A stretch of 64,000 bases of DNA from Bryobacteraceae bacterium (GCA_030041495.1 JASHNT010000103.1:1-64000); one strand, 5' to 3'. Shown: positions 25,075-30,141, counted from the stretch's first letter. Numbers and translations: made by a program. Notes: generated by a model from the letters alone, not told the origin.

Positions 25075-25608
25075 CTACTTCTTGCCGCGTCCGTTCGGAT
25101 TCGGCGGCGGAATGGTCTGCGGATCCCAATGCTCGTCCGCCTTGCCGTCCACGAAGCGCCACTGGTCGAACCAGGTGGTGTAGTAGCTCTTACTGGGATC
25201 GCGCGGATCGGGCGTGGGCCCGCGCGGCGTCACCACAATCACGTAATCGCCCATCGCCACCACGGAAACAATCTTGGTCTTGACGAACTTCGGAGGCACT
25301 GGCGTGGGCTGCACGCCGCGCGCCTTGAAGAACGCCACCACGCCCGCGCGGCCGGAAGCCGCCAGCGGATTGTGTTGATGATACGCCTCAGTCAGCCACT
25401 TGCCGGACTCGTCCCAGTGGTTGCACTCCAGCAGATCCAGCATGATGTGATACGCCGACTGGAGATTGCGGTCCAGCTTCTTATCCTTGCTATGGAACAA
25501 GGCATCCGGATTCTCGACGCCCACCACCGGTTCCTGCGCGAACACCGGCACGGCTAGACTGAACAGAAAAGGGGCAGCCAGGGCCAATAAAGCGGTTCTC
25601 ATTTTCAT
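25075..25608 (-). CDS. secreted SnoaL/NTF2-like protein
   Basis: A 177-residue protein with a clear signal peptide (MKMRTALLALAAPFLFS to VFAQ) and an NTF2-like alpha/beta barrel: a helical start, then LTEAYHQHNPLAASGRAGVVAFFKARG, which is typical of SnoaL-type polyketide-cyclase-like proteins. Strands KIVSVVAMGDYVIVVTP and WFDQWRFVDGKADEHWD follow. Catalysis is not predictable. The ATG at 25608 is chosen because it begins the signal peptide. It lies 65 bases downstream of the caspase-like gene. Confidence 0.82.
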   Translation of the reverse strand: MKMRTALLALAAPFLFSLAVPVFAQEPVVGVENPDALFHSKDKKLDRNLQSAYHIMLDLLECNHWDESGKWLTEAYHQHNPLAASGRAGVVAFFKARGVQPTPVPPKFVKTKIVSVVAMGDYVIVVTPRGPTPDPRDPSKSYYTTWFDQWRFVDGKADEHWDPQTIPPPNPNGRGKK

Positions 25609-25673: not shown

Positions 25674-27722
25674 CTATCGCGCCGCCAGCGCCATATCGAT
25701 GCTCCGCAGGTCCGCCTTGGCGAACTTCGCCTCTTCCAGATCCGGATTGATTTCGATCATCTTCTGGAAGTGCTCTTGCGCGGCGGAGAGCGTCTCGTAA
25801 CTGCCGCTCGACTGCGCCTGGTGCATGTAGCACAGACCCAACGCGTAGTGCGTGTAGGGATCGGTCTTGTCGTACGCCAGCGACTTCTGGCAATAACCGA
25901 TTGCATCCGGGTAGTGCATCATGTTGCGCTCCGAATCGCACAAGCCGAAATACGCCAGACTCCGCAGGTCGCGCCACGTATCGGTCTGCGCGGCGCGCTT
26001 CTTATGCCCCACTCCGAACAAATACCCCAGCACGTAATAATTCATCTGCCCGCCCACTCCGCTATCGAAATTGCTCAGGCGCAGATAATTCATGTACTCG
26101 CCGGTCGATTCCTGATATTTGCCGCTCAAACGCAAACTGTCGGCCAGCCACATGTGCGGCTCGGCCACCTGCGGCGTCAGCTTGATGGCCGCGTTCGCCG
26201 ATTCGATCGCTTGCGCGTACAGCCCCTTCATGCGATACGCCTGCGCCTGCATATATAGCGCTGTCGCGTCGCGCTTATCGCGCTGCGTCACCGTGTTCAA
26301 TTGGCGAATCGCCTCATCCACGCCACCGGTATCCAGCAGCACTCCGGCGTAGCTCACGCGCGCTTCCAGATAATCGGGATCGATCTCGATCGCCTGCCTC
26401 ATCGCGGCTTGCGCCTTGTCCTCGTCAAACAGCGAATAGTAGGCGCGGCCCAGGTACAAGGCCGCCTGGCTGTATTTCGGATCGATGCTCAACGCTTTTT
26501 CGAAATGCTCTACGGCCTTCTTGTAATTCTCTGCCGACCCTTTGTTAAAAGCCGCCAGGCCCTCGTTCAACTCATCGATCGCGGCCTTGTTGCGCCGCCG
26601 GGCAATCAAAATCTTGATCGAGACTGTCGATTCCTGCCCCGGATAAACCGTCTCATCCCGCGGGCCATCCGGCTCGTAGCCCATCTTCACGCCTTGAATC
26701 GTGTGCGCGCCGGGACGCAGACCGGGCAGGCGCAGCGGCGCGGATTTGTTCACGATCCCGTGCGAAACTCCGTCCACGAAAACCTCCACGCCGTCCATGT
26801 TGGTTTCGAAGATCAGCGTTCCCTCCTTTGCCTCGGGAGCCTTGGCCGCTCGCAACCCCGCCGGAAGATACGCCAGCAGCATGTTGGGGTCGAAACTGCC
26901 ACGATCGCTGGTCGGATTCTGTTGGCCCTTAGTGGCTTCGCGCACGTTGCGATAAGTGTAATCGGCCAGCTCATCCGCGGTCACGATGCCGTCGCCGTTT
27001 TCGTCCGCCTCGCCTTCCAGCCCCTTCACAACGTAGTAAGTAAAGATGCCGTGGCCTCCGCCCCACTGCGCGCTTTCGAACGATCGCTCGCGGTCGCGGC
27101 TAGCGGTCAGTGAAAACATCGATTTCGACAAATCCAGCAATCGCTTGTTGTACGCCTGCGCATCGGCATCCGGCGTAATCGCGCCGCTATGGCACGAATC
27201 CGTGATCAGAACCTTATTCTTCGCCTGGATCTTCGACCCCGCCACCATCCCCAGCGTGTCCATCGGATACCCGGTGCCGGCAATGTTGGACGGATCGAAA
27301 TCGTACGGAGCCAGATACGCTCGCCCGTCTTTGATGAATCCGTGACCGGCGAAATAAATCACCACGCGGTCATCTTCCTTCGCTACCGACGGCAGCCACA
27401 CTTCCAGCTCTTGTTTCAGGTTCGCGAGCGTCGCCTTCGCGCCGGTCAGCCGGTGCACGTTCTCGGCGTGAAAATTTCCACCCTCCGGACTGATGAGGAC
27501 CGAATACATCGCATCCGCGTCGCGCTCCGGAAATTCGAGCTGCGATTTTGCCGGCAGGTTTTTGTAATTGGAGATGCCGACAATCAGCGCGTAGCCGCGC
27601 GGCACATTCACCGAAGCGTTAGCGGGCGCGTTCTCCTCATACTTGAGGTCGCGCGTCTTACCCTGCCCGAATGCCAACCCGGCAACGGCGACAAAACTAG
27701 CGATGCGATAGGCGCAGTTCAT
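25674..27722 (-). CDS. secreted caspase-like (C14) protein with PEGA and TPR domains
   Basis: The 682-residue protein starts with a signal peptide (about residues 1-20) and a caspase p20-like domain. The catalytic His127 is in VIYFAGHGF and Cys177 in ITDSCHSG. An EF-hand-like loop DENGDGIVTADE is at about 240-251. A PEGA domain (FETNMDGVEVFVDG, about 310-360) and at least six tetratricopeptide repeats (about 395-675) follow. Such proteins cleave other proteins after basic or acidic residues, but this target is unknown. ATG 27722 is preferred over GTG 27737 since it begins the signal peptide. It overlaps the upstream DUF4384 gene by 26 bases. Confidence 0.88.
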   Translation of the reverse strand: MNCAYRIASFVAVAGLAFGQGKTRDLKYEENAPANASVNVPRGYALIVGISNYKNLPAKSQLEFPERDADAMYSVLISPEGGNFHAENVHRLTGAKATLANLKQELEVWLPSVAKEDDRVVIYFAGHGFIKDGRAYLAPYDFDPSNIAGTGYPMDTLGMVAGSKIQAKNKVLITDSCHSGAITPDADAQAYNKRLLDLSKSMFSLTASRDRERSFESAQWGGGHGIFTYYVVKGLEGEADENGDGIVTADELADYTYRNVREATKGQQNPTSDRGSFDPNMLLAYLPAGLRAAKAPEAKEGTLIFETNMDGVEVFVDGVSHGIVNKSAPLRLPGLRPGAHTIQGVKMGYEPDGPRDETVYPGQESTVSIKILIARRRNKAAIDELNEGLAAFNKGSAENYKKAVEHFEKALSIDPKYSQAALYLGRAYYSLFDEDKAQAAMRQAIEIDPDYLEARVSYAGVLLDTGGVDEAIRQLNTVTQRDKRDATALYMQAQAYRMKGLYAQAIESANAAIKLTPQVAEPHMWLADSLRLSGKYQESTGEYMNYLRLSNFDSGVGGQMNYYVLGYLFGVGHKKRAAQTDTWRDLRSLAYFGLCDSERNMMHYPDAIGYCQKSLAYDKTDPYTHYALGLCYMHQAQSSGSYETLSAAQEHFQKMIEINPDLEEAKFAKADLRSIDMALAAR

Positions 27723-28362
27723 AGACCACCGGTCCACCCAAGGGCTCGGGCGAGCTCAGCACCGTTCCGCCCTGCTCCTGCATAAAGAGTAACTCGCGCG
27801 GCGTCGCTCCCGCGATTCCCGCCAGATTCTCCGGCAGCTCTTCACCGGGCTTTACCGGCTTCACGCCGGCCGAATCGTCGATGCATTCGCCGCGAGCTTT
27901 GAAGACCGAATCGTCGCAGCGCGGGTGCATCGAACTGGGCGGTTCCGGATTCACGGGAGGCGGCGGCAACGGCCGGTAGGTTCTCGCCAGTTCCACCGGA
28001 CTCACTAGCCAATAAATCACATCCTGCCCCGGAGGGCCGCTCACTTTGAACCAGCCCTGCGACGCCGGCACAACGTATTCCTTCAACGCCTCGATGCGGT
28101 TGTCAGAGCCCGTATCCGATCGGGGAAATAACAGCTCATACCCGCCCGTGGTCCCGTGATTCATCACGTACAGGAATCCGGAGAAATTCGCCGAAACGCG
28201 GAAGCGCACCCGATCTCCGGGGTTGAACACCGTCGCCGCGTTCACTTCCTTCCAGATTCCATCCTGCCGTTCGACGTTGAGCTTGATCCGCTGAGGATCT
28301 TGCCCGGAAACCCGCGCGGCAATGGCGCCCGCGAAGCACGCAATGAGAATCGCCGCGCGCAT
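27697..28362 (-). CDS. secreted DUF4384-domain protein
   Basis: A 221-residue protein with a signal peptide (MRAAILIACFAGAIAARVSG) and a DUF4384-like beta domain: FNPGDRVRFRVSANFSGFLYVMNHG, then YELLFPRSDTGSDNRI. A proline-rich linker and a cysteine pair (PRCDDSVF, GECIDDSAG) follow. In other bacteria DUF4384 often sits beside caspase-like or protein kinase domains, as here. It overlaps the caspase gene and starts two bases before the end of the next DUF4384 gene, so the three are one operon. Confidence 0.8.
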   Translation of the reverse strand: MRAAILIACFAGAIAARVSGQDPQRIKLNVERQDGIWKEVNAATVFNPGDRVRFRVSANFSGFLYVMNHGTTGGYELLFPRSDTGSDNRIEALKEYVVPASQGWFKVSGPPGQDVIYWLVSPVELARTYRPLPPPPVNPEPPSSMHPRCDDSVFKARGECIDDSAGVKPVKPGEELPENLAGIAGATPRELLFMQEQGGTVLSSPEPLGGPVVYELRLSHR

Positions 28363-28363
28363 A

Positions 28364-29266
28364 TTACTGGTGCTTCAGGTCGACGTCCACCACCAGCCGG
28401 GCGTCCGGCGCGGTGCTGGGGTTCACCACGTAGGCCGCCGGCTCTACCTTGCCGTCGACCTCGGGATCCGTTTCAAACACCAGATCGCGGCTGGCGACCT
28501 GCGAGCGCAGGCGCTCGATCACATCGTTGGTCACTGAGGCTTTCGCTATCAACATGCGGGAGCCCCCCGGAGCGGCCGGAGCCGCGCCCCCCACCGCGTA
28601 GATCAGCTTGTCCAAATCCGGCTCGGCTTGCCGCGACAGCACCAGGAAAAGTTTTTCCGTGCCGCCTTGATCGTCGAACACGAATTGCCCGCGGCCGCCC
28701 GAAGGAATTTGCCGCGCGTCGCCCGGCTCCAGCCGGTTACTCCCGCCGGCCACGTCGGAAGAAGGAAACAGCACTTGCCAAGTCCCGCTCGATCCCTGCG
28801 CCACCACGTAAAGATAGCCCGTCGTATTCGCCTTCACCTGGAGCCGGATGCGGTCGCCCGAATGAAACGTGGTGTCAGGCGCTACTTCAACAAACTCACC
28901 CGCCGTATTCCGTTTCAGCACGCTGTAGCGCACGCCCAGCGGCACCGCCGCGACGGCTACCGTGTGTGCGGAAACTGGCGTCACGGCAGGAGTGGAAGCG
29001 GCAGTAGGAGCAGGAGCCGGGGCAGGCGCAGCCGCCGCCGGAGCTTTCGCTTGGCTCGTGCTCGCCTCGTTTGTGCTCGATTTCTGCTGCACCGCAGCGG
29101 GAGCGCGCTTCGCCGAGGTTTTGGGCGCCGCAGGTTTGGTGGGCGCGGCGTCCGGAGGCGGGGTATAAAACAGCTCCCGCGCGTGCAAACCTGAGTTATC
29201 CTGCGCCCACGCGGCCCCGGCCAACGCCACCGCGCCGAAAATCCCCAATCGAGACAAGCACTTCAT
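28364..29266 (-). CDS. secreted DUF4384-domain protein with Ala/Pro-rich linker
   Basis: A 300-residue protein, the first gene of the caspase operon. It has a signal peptide (MKCLSRLGIFGAVALAGAAWA) and a long Ala/Pro/Thr-rich linker (about residues 35-110). A DUF4384-type domain follows, with FHSGDRIRLQVKANTTGYLYVVAQG and WQVLFPSSDVAGGSNRL. GGAG-type ribosome site GGAGAAAAG precedes the ATG at 29266. The core repeats the layout of the neighbouring gene, so the two probably arose by duplication. Confidence 0.8.
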   Translation of the reverse strand: MKCLSRLGIFGAVALAGAAWAQDNSGLHARELFYTPPPDAAPTKPAAPKTSAKRAPAAVQQKSSTNEASTSQAKAPAAAAPAPAPAPTAASTPAVTPVSAHTVAVAAVPLGVRYSVLKRNTAGEFVEVAPDTTFHSGDRIRLQVKANTTGYLYVVAQGSSGTWQVLFPSSDVAGGSNRLEPGDARQIPSGGRGQFVFDDQGGTEKLFLVLSRQAEPDLDKLIYAVGGAAPAAPGGSRMLIAKASVTNDVIERLRSQVASRDLVFETDPEVDGKVEPAAYVVNPSTAPDARLVVDVDLKHQ

Positions 29267-29403
29267 GACAGCTTTTCTCCTGGCTCCCAGTCTAACGCTC
29301 ATTCCATCTGGATACGCGAAGAATCGGCGGAATTAGGCTCAAAGTCCATAGCCGCGAAGGCTTGCACGTTCGGGCTAGGGCGCTCGTCATCCTCGACAGA
29401 AGC

Positions 29404-30141
29404 ATGCGTCTAGCCTCCGGTCTCCTGCTGATGGCCGCATTTCTCCCGGCGCAAGCCCCGCAGGCGCGGTTTGAAGCCGCCTCCATCCGCCTTAGCCAGG
29501 GCGACGAACTCGACGCTCCGTCGGGTTGCCCAACTGACGCCATCCTGGTCCGATGCACCAACGTGACGCTCAAGCGCGCCATTGTGGGCGCTTACGACGT
29601 CATCCCGGATCGCGTCCTCGGAGGTCCGGATTGGATCGATTCCGACCGCTTCCAGATCACGGCCAAGTCTGCTCAGCCGGTGCGCGGGGAGGAACTCGAC
29701 AAAATGCTTCAAGCGCTCCTGGCGGACCGGTTCCATTTGAAGTTTCATCGCGAGATGCGCAACCTTCCGGCCTTCGTGCTCGGGATCGCGAAGAACGGCC
29801 CAAAGCTCCAGCCGGCCACGGGCGCCCCCCGCTCGTACAACAACGCGCACGGGCACATGGAAGCCAGCGGCGTGACCATGAGCCTGTTCGCGGAGGTGCT
29901 CTCGCGCCAGTTGGGCCTGCCGGTGATGGATCGCACTGGGCTCACCGGAGCATTCAACTTCCGATTGGTGTGGAATCCCGATGCCCCGCTCACGACGGAG
30001 CTGGGAACGGGCGCAGCATCCGACGCCGGCGTGGACTTCTTCAACTCGATCAAGCAGCAGCTCGGCTTGACCCTCAAGTCGCGGCGGATGCGCGTCGAGG
30101 TGTTGATGGTCGATCACGCCGAGAGGCCTGCGGCGGATTGA
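29404..30141 (+). CDS. TIGR03435 family protein
   Basis: This 245-residue secreted protein has the family layout: signal peptide (MRLASGLLLMAAFLPAQA), FEAASIRLS near the N-terminus, LKRAIVGAYDV, the middle motif LLADRFHLKFHREMRNLPAFVL, the late MDRTGLTGAFNFRLVW and the C-terminal VLMVDHAERP. The family is expanded in Solibacter-like Acidobacteria and has no known function. The ATG at 29404 begins the signal peptide. A long antisense ORF covers this gene; see the next entry. Confidence 0.88.
   Translation: MRLASGLLLMAAFLPAQAPQARFEAASIRLSQGDELDAPSGCPTDAILVRCTNVTLKRAIVGAYDVIPDRVLGGPDWIDSDRFQITAKSAQPVRGEELDKMLQALLADRFHLKFHREMRNLPAFVLGIAKNGPKLQPATGAPRSYNNAHGHMEASGVTMSLFAEVLSRQLGLPVMDRTGLTGAFNFRLVWNPDAPLTTELGTGAASDAGVDFFNSIKQQLGLTLKSRRMRVEVLMVDHAERPAAD

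Follow-up and report, generated by a model that had tools for sequence, protein, structure and literature searches.

An operon of three genes in a Bryobacteraceae bacterium encodes two DUF4384 proteins, D1 and D2, and a caspase-PEGA-TPR protein (P0001). We read it as an exported sensor-protease module, in which the DUF4384 proteins would act as envelope sensors or adaptors and which is sometimes tied to the kinase signaling of type VI secretion systems (T6SS), and give this reading a probability of about 0.42. The module would probably serve envelope sensing rather than act as a cytoplasmic suicide enzyme.

In the window, i.e., the whole stretch of 64,000 nucleotides that was analyzed, ORF calls place the three genes on the minus strand of 25674-29266 (Table 1), just where the initial annotation had put them, and Pfam backs each of the domains that it had named. 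D1 and D2 are separated by a gap of 1 bp, whereas the D2 and caspase genes share 26 bp. As the identical overlap is found in 11 further orthologues, the ATG at 27722 is favored as start of the caspase gene over the GTG at 27737, and the overlap suggests that translation of both genes is coupled. For D1 the ATG at 29266 is most likely the start; an alternative start further 5' in frame at 29302 would give a protein of 312 aa. Full-length identities between orthologues within the order range from 56 to 79%, and therefore the operon is not a chance arrangement. A genome search with full-length P0001 as query was swamped by TPR matches; the 38 distinct orthologues used here derive from a scan of species genomes and of relatives and belong chiefly to Bryobacterales-type Acidobacteriota.

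Both flanks of the operon carry further genes. The caspase gene is followed on the minus strand by a gene for a small secreted protein (25075-25608, about 170 aa, starting with MRTALLALAAPFLFSLA). A look-alike of this protein (cluster c32) is encoded about 3 kb from the caspase in two other loci (L005 and L137), and the small protein may be loosely associated with this neighborhood. Divergent from D1 lies a plus-strand gene (29389-30141) whose product belongs to DUF3738 (E 6e-52), a family without known function.

Table 1. Features of the D1-D2-caspase operon, with positions counted from the first letter of the window.
Feature	Position	Strand	Evidence or remark
D1, predicted secreted DUF4384 protein, 300 aa	28364..29266	-	PF14326, alignment, Ig-like model
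D1 motif ARELFY, directly after the signal peptide	29165..29182	-	candidate cleavage/docking site
DUF4384 domain of D1	28628-28870	-	PF14326
D1 motif SRDLVF, second copy, before the C-terminal strand	28475..28492	-	orthologues
D2, predicted secreted DUF4384 protein, 221 aa	27697..28362	-	PF14326, orthologue alignment
DUF4384 domain of D2	27997-28227	-	PF14326
Caspase-PEGA-TPR protein (P0001), 682 aa	25674..27722	-	Pfam, 38 orthologues, fold, conserved overlap
Catalytic His127 codon, FAGHGF	27342..27344	-	invariant in 38 orthologues
Catalytic Cys177 codon, TDSCHSG	27192..27194	-	invariant in 38 orthologues
EF-hand-like loop (residues 240-251, DENGDGIVTADE), with a predicted helix on either side	26970..27005	-	orthologues, model
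PEGA domain (PF08308), residues 301-371	26610..26822	-	Pfam E 1.3e-4, above cut-off
TPR superhelix, about residues 378-660	25743..26591	-	several Pfam TPR families; Z 25 vs TPR structures

Residues 42-274 of the caspase protein match Peptidase_C14 (PF00656) with 59.8 bits against a cut-off of 21.4 (E 4e-16), and the Pfam TPR matches span about residues 395-660. The catalytic pair had been numbered exactly in the initial annotation, which had made its proposal depend on the conservation of these two residues: His127 and Cys177 are kept in 38/38 orthologues, and so is Asp175, two residues ahead of the cysteine. In metacaspases the Asp of the motif D-[SA]-C-H-S-G is part of the S1 pocket, to which it gives its selectivity for Arg or Lys. 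Given this precedent and the invariant Asp175, the protease would be expected to cut after Arg/Lys. The structure model (mean pLDDT 77.9) was matched to Arabidopsis metacaspase-4 (6w8r) with a Z-score of 23.6 over 225 residues at 3.0 Å and to MALT1 with a Z-score of 23.3. From the three invariant residues and the fold we infer a domain of the metacaspase/orthocaspase type with every sign of activity. A sequence search of solved structures found no relative for the caspase domain or for D1, and the family model NF047832 (caspase, EACC1-associated) scored 94.4 bits, below its curated cut-off of 140.

Signal peptides were assessed by hydropathy only. A strongly hydrophobic, Sec-like N-terminus is present in 30/36 caspase, 29/30 D2 and 29/33 D1 ORFs of the orthologues, and most of the ORFs failing this test are contig-edge fragments or have wrong automatic starts. 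By hydropathy, the earlier claim of signal peptides on all three proteins holds across the orthologues. If Sec exports all three, as these N-termini predict, the protease would act in the periplasm or on the cell surface. An invariant Cys pair in the second half of D2 fits an oxidizing compartment. That a location outside the cytoplasm sets the protein apart from most bacterial caspases is true, but was already known: a 2012 survey of 398 single-domain metacaspases from bacteria had reported an N-terminal helix or signal peptide in 46 of them (PMC3501461).

The initial annotation had also proposed a calcium signal, based on the EF-hand-like loop. In all 38 orthologues D240, D244 and E251 are invariant and the third position of the loop (residue 242) is always N, S, D or T, i.e., an oxygen donor. 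Oxygen ligands thereby occupy loop positions 1, 3, 5 and 12 and helices flank the loop in the model, which is the pattern of an EF-hand motif. In addition, the search of solved structures weakly and unprompted matched the loop to a calerythrin EF-hand (E 0.75). The idea that the loop is a hallmark of the family was rejected, as strict loops are also found in 5 of about 22 other caspases. The calcium proposal is only compatible with the conserved ligands, as similar loops occur in some other bacterial caspases. The loop may render folding or activity calcium-dependent. Metacaspase-4 is calcium-dependent; however, the loop described here presumably differs from the known calcium site of metacaspases.

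D1 and D2 match DUF4384 (PF14326) with 53.5 and 48.8 bits, above the cut-off of 27, the two E-values being 7e-13 and 2.5e-14. The structure model of D1 is a predicted Ig-like beta-sandwich, for which fold searches (Foldseek, VIA) returned only generic Ig-like matches (best Z 7.5), and therefore no family can be assigned. Two short arginine motifs stand out in D1: A-R-[DEQ]-[LIM]-F is present in 31/31 orthologues with a readable N-terminus, and the second copy, [AS]-R-D-L, is kept in 34 of 35. The motif is also kept in G102, a genome of another family, where the caspase gene is not adjacent.

Conservation of DUF4384 genes next to the caspase gene had been named as a comparison for the proposed unit. 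In all 36 Bryobacterales-type orthologues with visible upstream DNA, the caspase gene is immediately preceded by a DUF4384 gene, which encodes D1 and/or D2 in 33 and a kinase-DUF4384 protein in the other three. Two far caspase orthologues in G102 have no adjacent DUF4384 gene. In the three exceptional loci (L025, L028 and L031) the place of D2 is taken by a Ser/Thr kinase that has a single predicted transmembrane (TM) helix and a C-terminal DUF4384 part, which is predicted to be extracytoplasmic, and the kinase gene is start/stop coupled to the caspase gene. This DUF4384 part scores below the Pfam cut-off, but a D1 profile matches it with E-values from 4e-15 to 6e-14. A further lineage (L018, L019, L020, L029 and L032) has only D1 and no D2, and three partner changes are needed on the tree. 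Elsewhere in the phylum, four genomes (G147, G066, G091 and G103) likewise have kinase-TM-DUF4384 genes beside caspase genes.

Published surveys point in the same direction: fusions to DUF4384 were reported for 23 of 473 cyanobacterial orthocaspases (PMC8283722), and the domain is frequently seen together with kinase domains (PMC6426788). Combined with the gene pairing and the kinase swaps, these data argue that DUF4384 and the caspase cooperate outside the cytoplasm and that DUF4384 can form the external domain of a kinase. A sensor-protease unit, as first suggested, is the best reading of the locus; its sensor half is backed by DUF4384 as predicted kinase ectodomain. The initial interpretation is thus supported in part. 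In two other loci (L126, 7059-8408; L070, 2019-3104) exported-looking trypsin-like proteases directly adjoin DUF4384 genes, which suggests that DUF4384 pairs with more than one kind of protease. A caspase homologue in G103 (C35:33116-33988, L098) has two TAG stops in frame and is probably a pseudogene.

TssK is encoded within 8 kb of the operon in 5 of the 21 loci with enough flank (L009, L012, L013, L015 and L030). TssL and TssM are also beside the operon in the first four of these, and in L030 TssK is accompanied by a sheath-like gene. By chance, T6SS adjacency would be expected in about 0.13 of 21 loci if these are independent and TssK occurs twice in 6 Mb. The five loci are scattered on the tree and do not form one clade; an ancestral T6SS linkage with later losses is possible. 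In L009-L015 the T6SS genes are convergent with the operon and not co-transcribed, and in L009 the kinase beside TssM has the architecture kinase-TM-FGE-sulfatase, which resembles PpkA plus TagR. In G102, D1, D2, TssK, TssL and TssM follow each other in a row on one strand (L111, 1774-8926), with 13 kb between caspase and D1-D2, and DUF4384 genes are found near TssK in G049 and G103. Among the relatives, TssK is present in 9/13 with the operon versus 3/28 without it (Fisher p 3e-4). Within the genus this association does not reach significance (p 0.10), and operon and T6SS may come together in larger genomes for no functional reason. In the window, no T6SS genes adjoin the operon; this genome has two TssK genes, which are located on other contigs. 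As the operon also occurs without TssK in G013 (97% complete) and G018 (96%), a T6SS is not needed for the function of the module; conversely, G009, G012 and G015 have a T6SS and no operon. The T6SS link is real as a neighborhood pattern, but it is not obligatory.

From the export signals, gene order, catalytic residues, domain swaps and neighborhood enrichment, all read from the sequences, the following mechanism can be proposed. After Sec export the caspase would be an active protease that cleaves after basic residues like metacaspases and orthocaspases, and calcium may be required in addition. The Ig-like DUF4384 domains would sense the state of the envelope and dock on or control the protease, as the gene pairing and domain swaps suggest, or else be cut by it; in some relatives this sensor would be the domain predicted to face outward on a Ser/Thr kinase that spans the membrane once and whose gene lies directly upstream of the caspase gene. 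More tentatively, in part of the family the module might feed a kinase pathway that switches on the T6SS, in analogy to the role of TagQ-TagR-PpkA in Pseudomonas (PMC10482370). The conserved arginine motifs of D1 could, speculatively, be cleavage or docking sites for a protease of the Arg-specific type. The more specific proposal that the exported caspase and DUF4384 control an acidobacterial T6SS kinase pathway, in which DUF4384 proteins or kinase ectodomains would sense an envelope attack and the caspase would set the kinase or the TssM complex by proteolysis, is unlikely. If true, it would be, as far as the literature examined shows, the first caspase-family protease in the control of type VI secretion.

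Alternatively, the caspase could be an exported processing protease, similar to the gingipain-type enzymes of clan CD, that trims large surface proteins encoded by neighboring genes, with D1 and D2 as chaperones or anchors. PEGA domains are typical of surface proteins, and in 19 of 33 distinct loci a long secreted protein with Ig-like He_PIG repeats (c3) has its gene near the operon, often in divergent orientation. Neighbor clustering found two further secreted proteins, c4 and c5, in 12 and 11 of these loci. However, in the window and its close clade the operon is intact without adjacent c3-c5, and relatives of c4 are present in 35 of 41 genomes, whether or not these have the operon, for which reason c4 was also dropped as a fixed partner. 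We regard such a maturation function as rather unlikely.

Rather improbable, too, is a stand-alone protease for envelope stress or regulated death, which D1 and D2 would hold inactive until damage or calcium frees it and lysis follows, the T6SS being incidental. The persistence of the operon in the two TssK-free genomes would agree with this, and a connection between metacaspases of bacteria and cell death has been described (PMC3501461). However, T6SS and kinase neighbors recur, and export places the caspase away from cytoplasmic death targets.

The order of genes in G102 raises the question whether D1 and D2 are the missing outer-membrane link (TssJ) of the acidobacterial T6SS, with the caspase regulating assembly. 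There, D1-D2 are located upstream of tssK-tssL-tssM, near a frequent tssJ position. Both proteins are exported by prediction, D1 is a predicted beta-sandwich, and the TssJ family (SciN, PF12790) has no match in any of 41 relatives, of which 12 encode TssK. The G102 cluster is therefore a candidate for an acidobacterial T6SS variant lacking the usual lipoprotein. Against D1 and D2 as its substitutes, no lipobox was seen and PF12790 matches nothing in the genome of the window, D1 and D2 included. A TssJ structure is absent among the listed fold matches of D1, although this does not exclude one, and operon and T6SS each exist without the other. Such a substitution is possible but not favored, and we consider it quite unlikely. 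A role in anti-phage defense is highly improbable: the PADLOC caspase model matches (E 4e-13), but it covers only the caspase domain of an exported protein, and no NLR, gasdermin or CRISPR gene was recognized in the neighbor lists that were inspected.

For the sensor-protease module preferred here, exported bacterial caspases and the association of DUF4384 with caspases were known before, whereas the literature examined did not describe the stable form with three genes, the exchange for a kinase or the neighborhood with T6SS; likewise, it gave no link between DUF4384 and T6SS and no paper linking caspases with T6SS in Acidobacteria. DUF4384 is a domain of unknown function and among the commoner ones joined to bacterial caspases. 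The locus would place it outside the cytoplasm, assign it to a fold class (the Ig-like sandwich), show it in two interchangeable forms, as a protein of its own or as the ectodomain of a kinase, and tie it repeatedly to T6SS genes. For the role of exported bacterial caspases it yields testable predictions, namely basic-specific cleavage, an effect of calcium, binding of D1/D2 and kinase signaling.

With the bacterial metacaspases/orthocaspases (Peptidase_C14, MEROPS C14B) the protein has in common the His-Cys dyad, the Asp two residues before the Cys and the metacaspase/paracaspase fold. It differs in its predicted export, the PEGA plus TPR tail and the fixed operon with two exported DUF4384 proteins. 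The fold of the catalytic domain is also that of Arabidopsis metacaspase-4 and the paracaspase MALT1 (Z 23), although the sequence identity is about 20%. The threonine phosphorylation pathway PpkA-TagQRST-Fha of the T6SS (PMC10482370) likewise combines a membrane Ser/Thr kinase, an external domain and exported partners beside T6SS genes; here, DUF4384 and the caspase would take the place of TagQ/TagR, in part of the family and not in the window. In the cyanobacterial orthocaspase-DUF4384 fusions (PMC8283722, PMC7475262) the same two domains are associated. However, there they form one polypeptide, whereas here they are predicted to be separate secreted proteins, or DUF4384 is carried by a membrane kinase.
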